Assembly: GCA_013141065.1 (NCBI GenBank)
Contig: JABFRR010000016.1
Span: 188,147 to 252,146 of the forward strand
Source: Bacteriovoracaceae bacterium
GTDB taxonomy: Bacteria; Bdellovibrionota; Bacteriovoracia; Bacteriovoracales; Bacteriovoracaceae
Direction: 5' to 3'
DNA length: 64,000 bases
The notes beneath the pieces were generated by a model. The model was not told the DNA's origin, did no database searches, and worked only from the letters and a program-made list of their open reading frames with translations. Positions 57,886-64,000 of the stretch are shown piece after piece. Each line of letters begins with the position of its first letter. The stretch's first letter is position 1. A program made the position numbers and the translations under genes.

Positions 57886-59208
57886 ATGAAACAGAATTTA
57901 TCAGTAAACTTATTGGTGCGTCTACAGAAATTAGATTTCACTTTGGATGAAGTCATAATTGAATTCGAACAAGTTTTTAAAATGAAGGGAATGCCAGGAA
58001 TTCTAGAAGTTATCTTTGAATATATAGATGGCCTGCTGGTAAATAATATCGCCACTGCGGTCATCCCCAAGATGCAAAGAGAGTGCTGTTCCAATGATAT
58101 TTGGCATTCCCACGGCTGGACAACTAAGACGGTTAAAACGAGTATGGGCAAGCTAAAGCTCCGGCTCAAGCGAATGAAGTGCCTATGCAAGACCACTCAC
58201 ACCCCATTTCATTTATTCTTTGGTCTTAGCAAAAAGAAAAATTTCTCGAATGAACTTCAGAAAAAATGTTGCGAGTTGGTATGCAACCAGAGCTACCGCC
58301 GAAGTAGCAAAGAACTAAACTCCATTGGCAATTTGGATATTAAAAAGATGGAACTCTATAGAATAGTAAACTCTTGCGATCTGGACTTTCAAAATACAAA
58401 AAATTTAAAAAATATTAATTCCCTTATGGCCGACGGCACGGGATATAAACCCCACTTTGAAGATCAGAAATCCGAGTTGAAAATTATTGTTGGATTAGAT
58501 AATGAGAACCGCCCCATTCCCATTGGAGCGTGGATTTTTAAGGGCTGGAAAGCTATCGGTACAGAACTAAAGAAAAATAATTCTCCTACTAATAGACTTT
58601 TGGTCTTTAAGCCTATAGCAAACGTTTTAATAACTGATGGAGAACTTGCCCTTATCAAGGGCCTCAAGCATTTGGCGCATCATCTACAGCGCTGTCAGTG
58701 GCATTTTGTAAGGGATTTTAAAAACGCCTATGTCTACCTAGAAAAGGGCGATAAATCCACCTGTCGCCAGATACAGAATGAATTATACGAGCAAATAAAT
58801 ACTTGCATGGATGCTCTTAATAAGGATGAAAAAACTGTAATTGATTCAATAGTAAAGGCCGAGTTGCATCTTGAAGAATTAGAAAAAAAATTAAAAATAG
58901 AAAAATTTAATAAAGCGGCAACTTATGTGAAAAATGCTCGGCAGGAACTCTTCACTCACTTGAAAATAATTTTAACTACTGGAGAAGAGGTTTACAGGAC
59001 GACGTCGCTAATAGAACGAGTTATGCGGGAATTGGCCAGACGATTTAAACGAATCGCTCACAACTGGAGCGAAGCTGGAGCTGAAAGACTTGCTCGAATG
59101 TTGCTTCGATTTACTCTTGATAAAAAAGGCTGGGACAAGGTTTGGGAACAAAAAATTATTATTACGGGGAATTTTAAACTGGAGACAACTGGTATCTATC
59201 CCACATGA
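57886..59208 (+). CDS. IS transposase (DDE type, ISH6/ISLre2-like)
   Basis: A 440-residue transposase. The probable catalytic triad is Asp in LMADGTGYK, Asp in LITDGE and a Glu in the C-terminal helix near SLIERVMRELARR. A CQWHF motif of the C/H type lies after the second Asp. The N-terminal part is basic with a short cysteine-rich zinc-like segment (KCLCKTTHTP). It starts with a GCAAAGGAATG context. The C-terminus runs into the right inverted repeat. The frame is intact, so it may still be active. It could also be placed with IS256-like families. Confidence 0.85.
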   Translation: MKQNLSVNLLVRLQKLDFTLDEVIIEFEQVFKMKGMPGILEVIFEYIDGLLVNNIATAVIPKMQRECCSNDIWHSHGWTTKTVKTSMGKLKLRLKRMKCLCKTTHTPFHLFFGLSKKKNFSNELQKKCCELVCNQSYRRSSKELNSIGNLDIKKMELYRIVNSCDLDFQNTKNLKNINSLMADGTGYKPHFEDQKSELKIIVGLDNENRPIPIGAWIFKGWKAIGTELKKNNSPTNRLLVFKPIANVLITDGELALIKGLKHLAHHLQRCQWHFVRDFKNAYVYLEKGDKSTCRQIQNELYEQINTCMDALNKDEKTVIDSIVKAELHLEELEKKLKIEKFNKAATYVKNARQELFTHLKIILTTGEEVYRTTSLIERVMRELARRFKRIAHNWSEAGAERLARMLLRFTLDKKGWDKVWEQKIIITGNFKLETTGIYPT

Positions 59209-60456: not shown

Positions 60457-61125
60457 ATGCTTACTTTGAAAAAAAACTCACTCAATCTCATCAGCTTTCC
60501 TGTAGGAAGTTACCAGTGTAATTGCTCAATTCTTTATTCAGACAAAACAAGAGAAGCACTTATTATTGATCCTGGTAATGATCATGAATTCATACTCAAG
60601 AAAATTAACGACCTCAATCTCAAAGTTAAAAAGTTAATACATACTCACGCACATTTTGACCACATTGGCAGAAGTACTGAAGTGGCCCATGCCACCGGAG
60701 CGAGTTTGCATCTCCATAAAGGTGATCAATTTCTCTACGATGCTCTCCCGCAACAAGGCATGTTTTTTCGACAAATTGTAGGTACTCCTAAAAAACTCGA
60801 TTCCTATCTAGAAGATGGAGAAGAATTTAGTTTTGATGACCCAGAAATTAATACTTTTTTAAAAACACTCCATACTCCAGGCCATACACCTGGTTCATGC
60901 TCATTTTATACTGAATATTTTGATGAACCAATGCTCTTTGCCGGAGACACACTCTTTAGAAGATCTATTGGCAGAAGTGATCTGCCTGGAGGAGACGGGC
61001 CTCTACTTATTAAATCTATCAAAAGCCGATTGTTAATTCTCCCAGATGAAACAAATGTCATTGCCGGTCACGGCCCTGAGACTCGAATTTATGATGAGAA
61101 AAAACAAAATCCTTTTTTATGTTAA
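60457..61125 (+). CDS. Metallo-beta-lactamase-fold hydrolase (glyoxalase II-like)
   Basis: A 222-residue MBL-fold protein with the metal motif HTHAHFDH (His64, His66, Asp68, His69), then HTPGHTPGSCSFY, FAGDTLFRRSIGRSDLPGGD and the late VIAGHGPETR. This set matches the YcbL/glyoxalase-II-like branch that hydrolyses thioesters such as S-lactoylglutathione or related substrates. It has no signal peptide and should be cytoplasmic. It begins two bases after the previous stop codon. Confidence 0.88.
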   Translation: MLTLKKNSLNLISFPVGSYQCNCSILYSDKTREALIIDPGNDHEFILKKINDLNLKVKKLIHTHAHFDHIGRSTEVAHATGASLHLHKGDQFLYDALPQQGMFFRQIVGTPKKLDSYLEDGEEFSFDDPEINTFLKTLHTPGHTPGSCSFYTEYFDEPMLFAGDTLFRRSIGRSDLPGGDGPLLIKSIKSRLLILPDETNVIAGHGPETRIYDEKKQNPFLC

Positions 61126-61130
61126 ATAAA

Positions 61131-63548
61131 TTATAAGCCCGATTCTTTTTTCACCTCAGGTAATTTCATAAGCATCACAATAGGAATAATTAAAAAGATT
61201 GCCCCTAAATAATATGGATAAGCAGACCCATATTGATAATAAATAATTGCGGCCGTTATCGGGCCCACGACTCGGGCGAGAGCTCCCAGTGATCTAAAAA
61301 TACCCACACTTCGTCCTTGTTCTTCTGGTGGCGTATAAAGAGTCACTAAAGAAGTCAGGCAAGGAATAATCATAGACGATCCAACTGAAAGGAAAAATAG
61401 TCCGACATACAATAACCACGAGGAATGTGCGAGACCTATACAAATTAATCCAGGAATTAAGGTATAAAGACCTTGAATTGCCATTTTCTTTTCCCCAATC
61501 TGACCTGCTTTTCGTCTGACGTATCCGCCTTGAACCATCGCCAAAATAAATCCAATAAAAATAAAAAGATAAGCATTTTGCATAGACGTATAACCCAGTC
61601 TTTCAAATGCTAAAAAGGTTAAAGTAAATTCCATTCCTGAAAACGCACTTAAGAATAAAAAATTACCGAAGTTGACAATATTCACTCCAGGATAAGGAAG
61701 TGGCTTAAAGATTTTAAAGGGGTTTGCACTTCTTACTGTTTCAGTTAATCCTCTTTTTTCAGGAGGTAAACTTTCCTTAAATCTTTTTGAAACCCAAATT
61801 ATATTAATAAAGGCCAACATAAATGAAAGGGCGGCTGGCATGGAAAATGGATTCACTCCGTATTGTGACCATTCTGGATATATTTTTGTGAGATCGATAA
61901 GGGATAAAATTCCTCCGATGGCGGGCCCAATAACAAATCCCAAAGCAAATGCGATACCTATAACGGCCATTCCTTTCGAGCGTGTCTGAGGACTAGTCAC
62001 ATCGGCCACTACGGCCGTTGCAGTTGAAATATTACCCCCCATAATTCCACCCAGGATTCGGGCAATAATTAAAAGGGTGAACGAACCTGAAAAAAACCAG
62101 AGAATATAACTTAGCGCGAGGCCGGTAAGCGAAACGAGTAGTACTGGTTTTCTCCCTACGCGATCTGAAAGACTACCCCACATTGGAGCAGCGATGAATT
62201 GTAAAAATGAATAAAGTGCACCGAGAATACCGCCGAATAAAACAATTCCTGAAAAAACATTTGAGCCTTCAGTGTATTGAGAAATCGTTTGAATAGATCC
62301 AAAAATGGCCTTTAAAAAAACATTATCCGCATCTACTGTTAAGTAATGTTTTGCCAGACTCGGAAAGAGTGGGAAAATAATAGAAAAACCAACTAAGTCT
62401 AAAAAAATAGTGAGAAAAATAATTTTAAGCGAAGATTTTGCTTCAGTTGTTAGTGGAGGCGATTTTTGTTTTAACTCAATGGCACTCATTTCATTAAATT
62501 CACGGTAATCACTTACTTCGAGTGTATAAAAATCTTTTTCACGAGTTTTATCGTCTGCTAGGCACTGATTTTCAATAAAATGAGCAAAATCTTTACACCA
62601 TTTATCATTATCATTTAAGCAGGGAATGAAATGAATATCTCCCCCATGCTCGTGAGCCGTTTCTTTAAGCTCTGTTCCTAATTCATCTAGTGTCTCTAAA
62701 CAATCTGCCACGAAACTAGGAGAATAGACTGCTAATTTTTTTTCTCCACTTTCTACTAATTTTATCACGGTGTCTTCAGTATAGGGAGTGAGCCATTCTT
62801 CTGAGCCAAATCTCGATTGAAATGTAATCGTAATTTTATCTTGAGTTATATTTTGTAAACGCGTTTTTATAAGAAAGTAGGTCTCATAGCAGTGTTTATA
62901 ATAAGCATCACCTTTAGTTACAACTCGACGTTTTTGAATTCCATGAAAAGTTAAAAGCAATCGATCGACACTTACACCTTTGTTTTTAAATTCTAACAAG
63001 GACTCATCAATTCTTTTGACACTGTTATCAATGAAAGCTTTAGAAGTATGAAAGTTTGTCATAATACTCAGTTCAGGAATCTTCACTCTACCCTTTATTT
63101 CAGATGCCAGGCCATCAATACCTGAAGCGATAGTTGATTCAGAGTACTGTGGAAACATTGGGACAACTTTTAATTTAACTGCAGGATTAGGGTCTGCCTC
63201 CCAATCATCCCAAACTTCATTGACTCTTGGGCTAGTCAGTAAAAAGGCGTGATTAACTTCTACTTTTGGTGAAGTGAGATGGCCTCTCACTCGATCAGTA
63301 AATGCCTTAGTTATAGTAATGAGTGGAAAAGATGTCCCATCCCAAATGCGAGAATAAAGCTTCGCCGAGCGTTTTGGTCTAAACGGTAAGACAAAAAGAT
63401 TGAGAATTAATTTCCAAACGAATGGATTTATATCCACCACACGTGGATCGGCAAGAAACTCCTTTAAAAATGCCCTGACATCGCTGACTTTGGGGCTTTT
63501 AGGTGAACCTAGCTGAACAAAAACAACTTTCGTTTTTCCTTCACTCAC
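61131..63548 (-). CDS. Ferrochelatase fused to a major facilitator superfamily transporter
   Basis: An 805-residue two-part protein. Residues 1-345 are a ferrochelatase (HemH) domain with VQLGSP, RIWDGTSFPL, FPQYSESTIASG, the catalytic His202 in TFHGIQKRR and Glu285 in VADCLETLDE, so insertion of iron into protoporphyrin IX looks possible. Residues 346-372 form a linker. Residues 373-805 are a 12-segment MFS transporter of the TetA-like type, with the GSLSDRVGRKPVLLVS motif A. There is no stop or frameshift at the join. MFS export or import of a porphyrin, haem or another drug is inference. It is divergent from queF. Confidence 0.9.
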   Translation of the reverse strand: MSEGKTKVVFVQLGSPKSPKVSDVRAFLKEFLADPRVVDINPFVWKLILNLFVLPFRPKRSAKLYSRIWDGTSFPLITITKAFTDRVRGHLTSPKVEVNHAFLLTSPRVNEVWDDWEADPNPAVKLKVVPMFPQYSESTIASGIDGLASEIKGRVKIPELSIMTNFHTSKAFIDNSVKRIDESLLEFKNKGVSVDRLLLTFHGIQKRRVVTKGDAYYKHCYETYFLIKTRLQNITQDKITITFQSRFGSEEWLTPYTEDTVIKLVESGEKKLAVYSPSFVADCLETLDELGTELKETAHEHGGDIHFIPCLNDNDKWCKDFAHFIENQCLADDKTREKDFYTLEVSDYREFNEMSAIELKQKSPPLTTEAKSSLKIIFLTIFLDLVGFSIIFPLFPSLAKHYLTVDADNVFLKAIFGSIQTISQYTEGSNVFSGIVLFGGILGALYSFLQFIAAPMWGSLSDRVGRKPVLLVSLTGLALSYILWFFSGSFTLLIIARILGGIMGGNISTATAVVADVTSPQTRSKGMAVIGIAFALGFVIGPAIGGILSLIDLTKIYPEWSQYGVNPFSMPAALSFMLAFINIIWVSKRFKESLPPEKRGLTETVRSANPFKIFKPLPYPGVNIVNFGNFLFLSAFSGMEFTLTFLAFERLGYTSMQNAYLFIFIGFILAMVQGGYVRRKAGQIGEKKMAIQGLYTLIPGLICIGLAHSSWLLYVGLFFLSVGSSMIIPCLTSLVTLYTPPEEQGRSVGIFRSLGALARVVGPITAAIIYYQYGSAYPYYLGAIFLIIPIVMLMKLPEVKKESGL

Positions 63549-63649
63549 TGCTTTATTCCTTCGTGATAAAATGATATAAATAGACTAATAATTAATTACC
63601 AAAATAAATCCATAACGACTATGGAAACTCGATGAAAAAAGGTGATAAA

Positions 63650-64000
63650 ATGGCCTCTAAATCAACTAGACAGAAATCTCCACCTACTGGTCGTCAAAAA
63701 GAATTAAAAGATTTTGCCCTCGGTGAGGCCCAAACGAATTATCCAACGACCTATTCTCCAAAGATTCTTGAAGCTTTCGATAATAAAAATCCTAGCTCTA
63801 AAGCTTGGACTACATTTATATGCACAGAATTCACATCACTTTGCCCTAAAACAGCTCAACCAGATTTTGCTAAAATTTTTATCAATTATATTGCCGATAA
63901 AAAAATGGTGGAATCAAAATCTCTTAAGTTGTATCTTTTCGGCTTTAGAAATCATGGTGACTTTCATGAGGACTGTGTACAAAAAATTTGTAATGACTTG
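63650..64000 (+). CDS. queF: NADPH-dependent 7-cyano-7-deazaguanine reductase QueF (partial, cut by window end)
   Basis: The first 117 residues of a queuosine-pathway QueF enzyme, which reduces preQ0 to preQ1 with NADPH. The pattern [16 protein letters not shown] with the active-site Cys and [19 protein letters not shown] is highly specific for the short unimodular QueF class. ATG 63650 is preferred because AAAGG lies seven bases upstream; an in-frame ATG at 63632 would add six residues. The 3' end is outside the window. Confidence 0.92.

Follow-up and report, generated by a model that had tools for sequence, protein, structure and literature searches.

A ferrochelatase fused to an MFSD10-type carrier in Bacteriovoracaceae, and a possible role for it in haem delivery

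We report that a ferrochelatase and a carrier of the major facilitator superfamily (MFS) are joined in one continuous 805-codon frame in a Bacteriovoracaceae bacterium (GCA_013141065.1, contig JABFRR010000016.1, positions 188,147 to 252,146 of the forward strand). The whole analysed stretch of 64,000 nucleotides is called the window here, and the frame lies at 61131–63548 on its minus strand, as a preliminary description of this DNA had it. Our leading, still tentative, reading is that the frame encodes a two-part haem enzyme–carrier, in which a ferrochelatase is coupled to an MFSD10-type carrier whose cargo would most likely be haem or a haem-like porphyrin. Ferrochelatase is usually a stand-alone enzyme. 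For most bacteria, to our knowledge, it is an open question how haem travels from ferrochelatase to the cytochromes of membrane and periplasm; the fusion offers, in a single gene, a candidate haem carrier of the inner membrane, and it hints at what human MFSD10, still called an organic anion carrier, may carry. As the union of a known enzyme and a known carrier fold the architecture is new, and a text search of the open-access literature returned no title or abstract opening describing a ferrochelatase–MFS fusion.

The fused frame, its spread and its origin

The N-terminal half is a full-length likeness of HemH, scoring above the cut-offs of both Pfam Ferrochelatase (PF00762, residues 6–327, E 6.6e-80, 268.9 bits against 27) and TIGR00109 (hemH, 212.2 bits against 124.6). 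The catalytic His202 and Glu285 singled out in the preliminary description align with a histidine and a glutamate of human ferrochelatase in a PDB alignment, the glutamate being that of DCIET, and both are present in 43/43 fused or tandem rows (38 distinct loci, five rows being duplicates). Insertion of Fe2+ into protoporphyrin IX by this half is predicted from its sequence. A free second ferrochelatase was sought in the source genome (92% complete), where no second PF00762 match was found; since this genome also holds HemE and HemB, any haem that the cell makes must come from the fused protein. The difference from stand-alone HemH lies in the complete MFS carrier at the C-terminus.

In that half, Pfam MFS_1 matches residues 377–681 and MFS_3 matches 702–803, slightly below its cut-off. 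Motif A reads GSLSDRVGRKP in loop 2-3, with G458, S461, D462, G465, R466 and P468 unchanged in all four sequences of alignment A1, while D384, R497, D516, E640, R752 and R759 are invariant across 50 rows (45 distinct, the other five being duplicates) that include unfused rows of the family. A predicted structure of moderate confidence, built from four sequences (mean pLDDT, the predicted local distance difference test, 67.8; pTM, the predicted template modelling score, 0.54), shows 12 transmembrane helices by our own grouping, in agreement with the complete permease first described; hydropathy alone gave no clear count. Cyanobacterial and plant ferrochelatases with a C-terminal chlorophyll-binding (HLIP/CAB) helix likewise have a fused membrane segment, but theirs is one pigment-binding helix whereas here it is a whole transporter. 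We rejected an HLIP/CAB-type ferrochelatase: a Pfam scan of the fused protein up to E 0.01 returned only Ferrochelatase and MFS-type families, and no such C-terminal family.

The features of the locus are as follows, in window coordinates.

61131–63548, minus strand: fused ferrochelatase and MFS carrier frame, 805 codons, GTG start
63557–63561, minus strand: Shine-Dalgarno-like AAGGA, 8 nucleotides 5' of the GTG start, read directly from the sequence
62568–63533, minus strand: HemH (ferrochelatase) domain, residues 6–327 (PF00762, TIGR00109)
62943–62945, minus strand: codon of catalytic His202 (alignment rows and human ferrochelatase)
62694–62696, minus strand: codon of catalytic Glu285 (alignment rows and human ferrochelatase)
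62436–62567, minus strand: polar linker, residues 328–371 (alignment A1), where genome G107 has an in-frame stop and a new start
61131–62435, minus strand: MFS carrier half, residues 372–805, MFSD10 family (Pfam, 6s4m, tree, model)
62145–62177, minus strand: MFS motif A GSLSDRVGRKP, residues 458–468 (read directly; alignment A1)
63632–64000, plus strand: queF (preQ0 reductase, PF14489), divergent neighbour running past the window end
60457–61125, plus strand: metallo-beta-lactamase-fold hydrolase (PF00753), convergent neighbour outside the system

Genomes, loci and families are cited below by our own handles (G, L and f, respectively). The same frame, full-length and free of stops, is found in 11/13 genomes of the same genus at 72–81% identity, open through the join, which bears out the earlier claim of a polar linker without a frameshift; in the remaining two it is split across two contigs (G013) or present as a C-terminal piece only (G010). 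The preliminary description had proposed looking for the domain pair in relatives, and among 129 genomes of the family, 113 had a ferrochelatase, which in 88/113 sits in a single frame of 700 codons or more. This rules out that the join is an artefact of assembly or of a frameshift error. The 25 ferrochelatase-bearing genomes without such a frame comprise one tandem split (G107), 12 apparently cut by contig ends and 12 with stand-alone HemH. Contig-end cuts were called from the extent of the contig (G087, G071, G032, G013, G014, G134), from matches lying no more than 20 bases from the start of a contig (G142, G137, G127, G072) or from split pieces only (G138, G086). The stand-alone group consists of G020, G074, G075, G089, G066, G145, G060, G029, G149, G031, G092 and G091, with flanks fetched for all except G091. 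Within family f1, two ferrochelatase matches were seen only in G127, apparently two contig pieces of one gene.

In a search of the phylum (368 genomes), no ferrochelatase frame longer than 433 codons occurred outside the family among the matches listed. Metagenome-assembled genomes (MAGs) titled Bacteriovorax stolpii (L032) and Bdellovibrionales (L033) carry the fusion at 56–58% identity; B. stolpii itself belongs to Bacteriovoracaceae. To judge from the names of its relatives, the source organism may be predatory.

In a HemH tree made by a quick method (5 of 64 rows dropped as duplicate loci), the fused rows form one clade with a Shimodaira–Hasegawa-like approximate likelihood-ratio test (SH-aLRT) value of 98. 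The divergent stand-alone HemH of G092 sits inside it on a very long branch, and those of G060, G089, G031 and G029/G149 adjoin it. The divergent upstream neighbour is queF in 33/35 other fused loci with room to see; queF also adjoins 7/8 family loci where the MFS gene has its own frame (G107 included, with queF one gene away in G101) and stands beside stand-alone HemH in G060, G149, G029, G031 and G092. The fusion apparently has a single origin at an old queF<>hemH locus, and the simplest history is that an MFS gene joined hemH there, with later losses of either half.

The preliminary description had named close relatives with two separate genes and a stop codon at this position as evidence against the fusion. 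One such genome was found: in G107 (L088:2741-5293, plus strand) the linker is interrupted by an in-frame stop, a new ATG comes after three codons, and both halves are open and in tandem. We read this as late fission because the HemH tree places G107 within the fused clade, beside the fused G105. The tandem split offers a natural comparison of the fused and unfused states.

Lone MFS halves occur in G020, G074, G075, G066, G027, G101 and G102. G020, G074 and G075 have a HemH from outside the fused clade, with the MFS half still at the queF locus (L077 and L078 in G020); the HemH of G020 sits in a run of hem-type genes. On an rpoB tree, from which G145 was left out as partial and in which G021 and G090 lacked a match, lone-MFS genomes are scattered among fused ones (G066 and G027 by G030, G102 by G028, G020 near G015), which points to several probable losses of the HemH half. 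Two rpoB genes occur in G066 (L145, L173), and the copy on a very long branch was taken to be foreign when traits were tested; G066 may thus be a mixed assembly, which leaves its foreign HemH uncertain.

The kind of carrier

Among solved structures, human MFSD10 (TETRAN) is by far the closest to the MFS half, in sequence and in fold. A sequence search of the PDB returned it (6s4m) at E 5.6e-66, followed by NorA at 1.2e-12; Foldseek placed it at the top for the predicted model, with ferrochelatases lower in the list, and the fold comparison covered 6s4m over its length with a TM-score of 0.76 by target length, the model being a moderate one. In a quick MFS tree (12 of 66 rows dropped, namely five duplicates and seven close same-genus rows), a split with SH-aLRT 100 sets the fused and lone MFS halves, the protein of a Planctomycetota MAG (L035) and MFSD10 apart from other Tet-like carriers, both those found in the phylum and those found in the same genus; MFSD10, of which only two stretches were used, and L035 form long branches. 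MFSD10 differs in being stand-alone, while the MFS half is joined to a ferrochelatase. According to passages of one paper, MFSD10 is concentrated at the nuclear envelope and its transport has "not been directly analyzed" (PMC6550788). Its cargo is listed as organic anions in part of another (PMC5627054), and the title of 6s4m also calls it an organic anion carrier.

Other known carriers fit less well. The nearest curated NCBIfam model is that of the Tet(A)/Tet(B)/Tet(C) efflux pumps, but its 157.4 bits fall far under the cut-off of 475 and we rejected a tetracycline pump. The copper importers CcoA/CalT, also MFS carriers that co-occur with haem-copper oxidases, are defined in the passages at hand by MXXXM in transmembrane helix 7 and HXXXM in transmembrane helix 8 (PMC5829832, PMC10588857); neither motif occurs in residues 363–805, and this candidate too was rejected. 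In its described role the MFS half would resemble HarT, an MFS carrier that an excerpt reports as a haem exporter of Clostridioides difficile (PMC11442138).

Links between the carrier and haem use

The preliminary description had suggested that the movement of porphyrin, haem or iron is coupled to haem synthesis. Three lines support a tie between the MFS half and haem use, namely the cta/cox context of unfused relatives, retention with oxidases in genomes without haem-synthesis genes, and a correlation with oxidases; nothing points to iron.

The first line comes from gene neighbourhoods. In family f9, a sister-clade MFS gene lies directly 3' of ctaB (haem O synthase) in 5/5 genomes, all five ctaB scoring above the NCBIfam cut-off, and ctaA precedes ctaB in 4/5 (G042, G049, G364, G365). 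In G056 and G049, the two f9 genomes with enough flank, the run opens with coxB-coxA-coxC-coxD; the G042 locus is cut by a contig end. The three f9 genomes read widely have hemB no more than about 5 kb away. In the Planctomycetota MAG L035 the order is ctaB-ctaG-coxC-MFS, and its MFS had no match at 1e-40 in a plasmid search.

The second line rests on genomes where haem synthesis appears to be missing. G027 (88% complete), G101 and G102 (99%) have no HemH, HemE or HemB match and keep the MFS half alone. Each has two COX1 matches, one oxidase in each showing the same eight histidine columns as that of the source genome; G027 also keeps CtaA and CtaB, and G102 keeps CtaB. Four other genomes without HemH, HemE or HemB (G093, G034, G024, G150) have neither a true oxidase nor the MFS half, with no COX1 match in the first three and one weak match in G150 (E 7.9e-60). 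G064, which also lacks the three haem genes, was not counted as haem-less, since its assembly of 720 contigs is 80% complete and has an MFS fragment at the edge of a contig. Retention of the MFS half in genomes with no ferrochelatase match speaks against metal-free porphyrin as the sole cargo.

As the third line, COX1 at E 1e-100 or better was found in 11/11 genomes with the MFS half and 3/12 without it (Fisher p 3.4e-4; p 0.001 without G145, which is 72% complete). HemB did not track the MFS half (8/11 against 7/12, p 0.67).

From these lines we infer the haem cargo, the direction of transport and the hand-over between the halves, as follows. MFS carriers have cytoplasmic ends, and the ferrochelatase half must therefore be cytoplasmic. 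On that side of the membrane, the N-terminal half would put iron into protoporphyrin, and the C-terminal half would act in the inner membrane as an MFSD10-type carrier of haem or a haem-like porphyrin. In haem-making genomes the fused enzyme would pass new haem to the carrier, which would bring it into or across the inner membrane for CtaB/CtaA, haem-copper oxidases and c-type cytochromes. In relatives that lack haem synthesis and have haem-copper oxidases, the lone carrier may handle haem from outside. That MFSD10 proteins in general, from bacteria to man, transport haem or porphyrin is a bolder generalization, and we regard it as rather doubtful; the fusion with ferrochelatase, the ctaB-MFS operons of f9 and the oxidase run of the Planctomycetota MAG would then be independent pointers to the natural cargo of human MFSD10.

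Several observations weigh against the proposed enzyme–carrier. The 23 genomes of the oxidase comparison were hand-picked as informative, and the 1e-100 line was drawn after the matches had been seen; with any COX1 match counted the contrast weakens to 11/11 against 6/12 (p 0.014). Pairing by kinship leaves two to four independent events, so the association between oxidase and MFS cannot be called significant. G089 and G031 have oxidases and HemH but no such MFS, which indicates that the carrier is dispensable there, and G017 also lacks it, possibly through an assembly gap. In the MFS tree, the lone carriers of G101 and G027 lie on long branches, and their role may thus have shifted. FecCD permeases, a possible other route for haem, were matched in 19/20 genomes tested, G027 and G102 included; the one genome of the 20 with no match was G101. 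The MFS genes of f9 form a sister clade only about 30–34% identical to the window's half and may have a different function, and none of nine other phylum relatives examined lies near cox/cta genes. Lone MFS and lone HemH occur at the same locus, which shows that fusion of the halves is not obligatory.

The source genome has a second fusion, which joins successive steps of the haem branch: a 608-residue frame (L218:4123-5949, plus strand; G000:C7), two genes before cox1, joins COX15-CtaA (haem A synthase) and CtaB (haem O synthase) domains, the latter above the NCBIfam cut-off.

Alternative roles for the fused protein

We rank the main competing explanations by how well they survive as import of prey haem or porphyrin with metallation, then an uncoupled fusion, then export of surplus haem, in that order.

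The MFS half may instead import haem or protoporphyrin released from prey, with the fused ferrochelatase metallating incoming porphyrin at once. The preliminary description had offered direct metallation of porphyrin from prey as one of its suggestions; we hold this explanation to be unlikely but the most serious of the alternatives. It would account for the MFS half standing alone in the three genomes that lack HemB, HemE and HemH but have haem-copper oxidases, and G101, which lacks a FecCD match, suits it. A porphyrin salvager would also look like G060, whose stand-alone ferrochelatase (L086:3954-4952, minus strand) keeps the histidine and glutamate in a genome 96% complete with no HemB or HemE match; salvage is possible there, but G060 lacks this MFS, its single 29%-identical match grouping with other Tet-like carriers. 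HemE is present in 84/88 fused genomes, so that porphyrin is probably made within these cells; the curated models nearest to the MFS half describe efflux pumps, and the predatory life that would supply the cargo is read from relatives' names only.

An improbable explanation is that neighbouring genes for hemH and a general organic-anion or drug MFS lost the stop between them and kept a joint frame without any coupling. The seven lone-MFS genomes, the five relatives with HemH alone at the same queF locus and the one stop that splits G107 all suit a loose association of this kind, as does the label of organic anion carrier given to human MFSD10 in the title of 6s4m and in part of PMC5627054. Yet most family genomes with a ferrochelatase have kept the fused frame, and in two other lineages related MFS genes again lie by oxidase or haem-O genes.

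Slightly less probable still is a safety valve, in which the MFS half would export surplus haem or phototoxic porphyrin, with the pump placed at the site of haem synthesis. Drug efflux is what the closest curated models describe (Tet family, 157 bits), and HarT offers a precedent for haem export by an MFS carrier in the excerpt cited above (PMC11442138). A pump of this kind poorly explains why G027, G101 and G102 keep the MFS half where haem-synthesis genes were not found, and why sister-clade genes sit in cta/cox operons.

A CcoA-like role, in which the MFS half would deliver copper or another cofactor needed to assemble haem-copper oxidases, is in our view very unlikely. The co-occurrence with oxidases, the relatives in cox operons and the position of the L035 gene, two genes after the copper chaperone gene ctaG, would all agree with such a role, but the MXXXM and HXXXM motifs given in the cited passages (PMC5829832, PMC10588857) are absent from the window's MFS half, and copper leaves the fusion to ferrochelatase unexplained.

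That the carrier works with the neighbouring queF, moving a deazaguanine, is hardly credible despite the constancy of that neighbour at fused and own-frame MFS loci, since queF is equally found beside stand-alone HemH in five relatives and so marks the old locus, and was not found in the upstream stretch searched, 1.6 kb at most, at the MFS gene in L035 and in seven relatives from the phylum, the flank of an eighth being too short to tell.

QueC-like PP-loop open reading frames, recognized by eye, lie no more than about 5 kb from the MFS relative in two f12 genomes (L197:6268-6942, minus strand; L198:3271-3729, plus strand); their resemblance to the queF neighbourhood of the window's family is probably a coincidence. 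The small second contig of G015 had no match in the plasmid search. Elsewhere in the window, a 440-codon open reading frame (57886–59208, plus strand) resembles what we take to be an ISLre2/UPF0236-type transposase.

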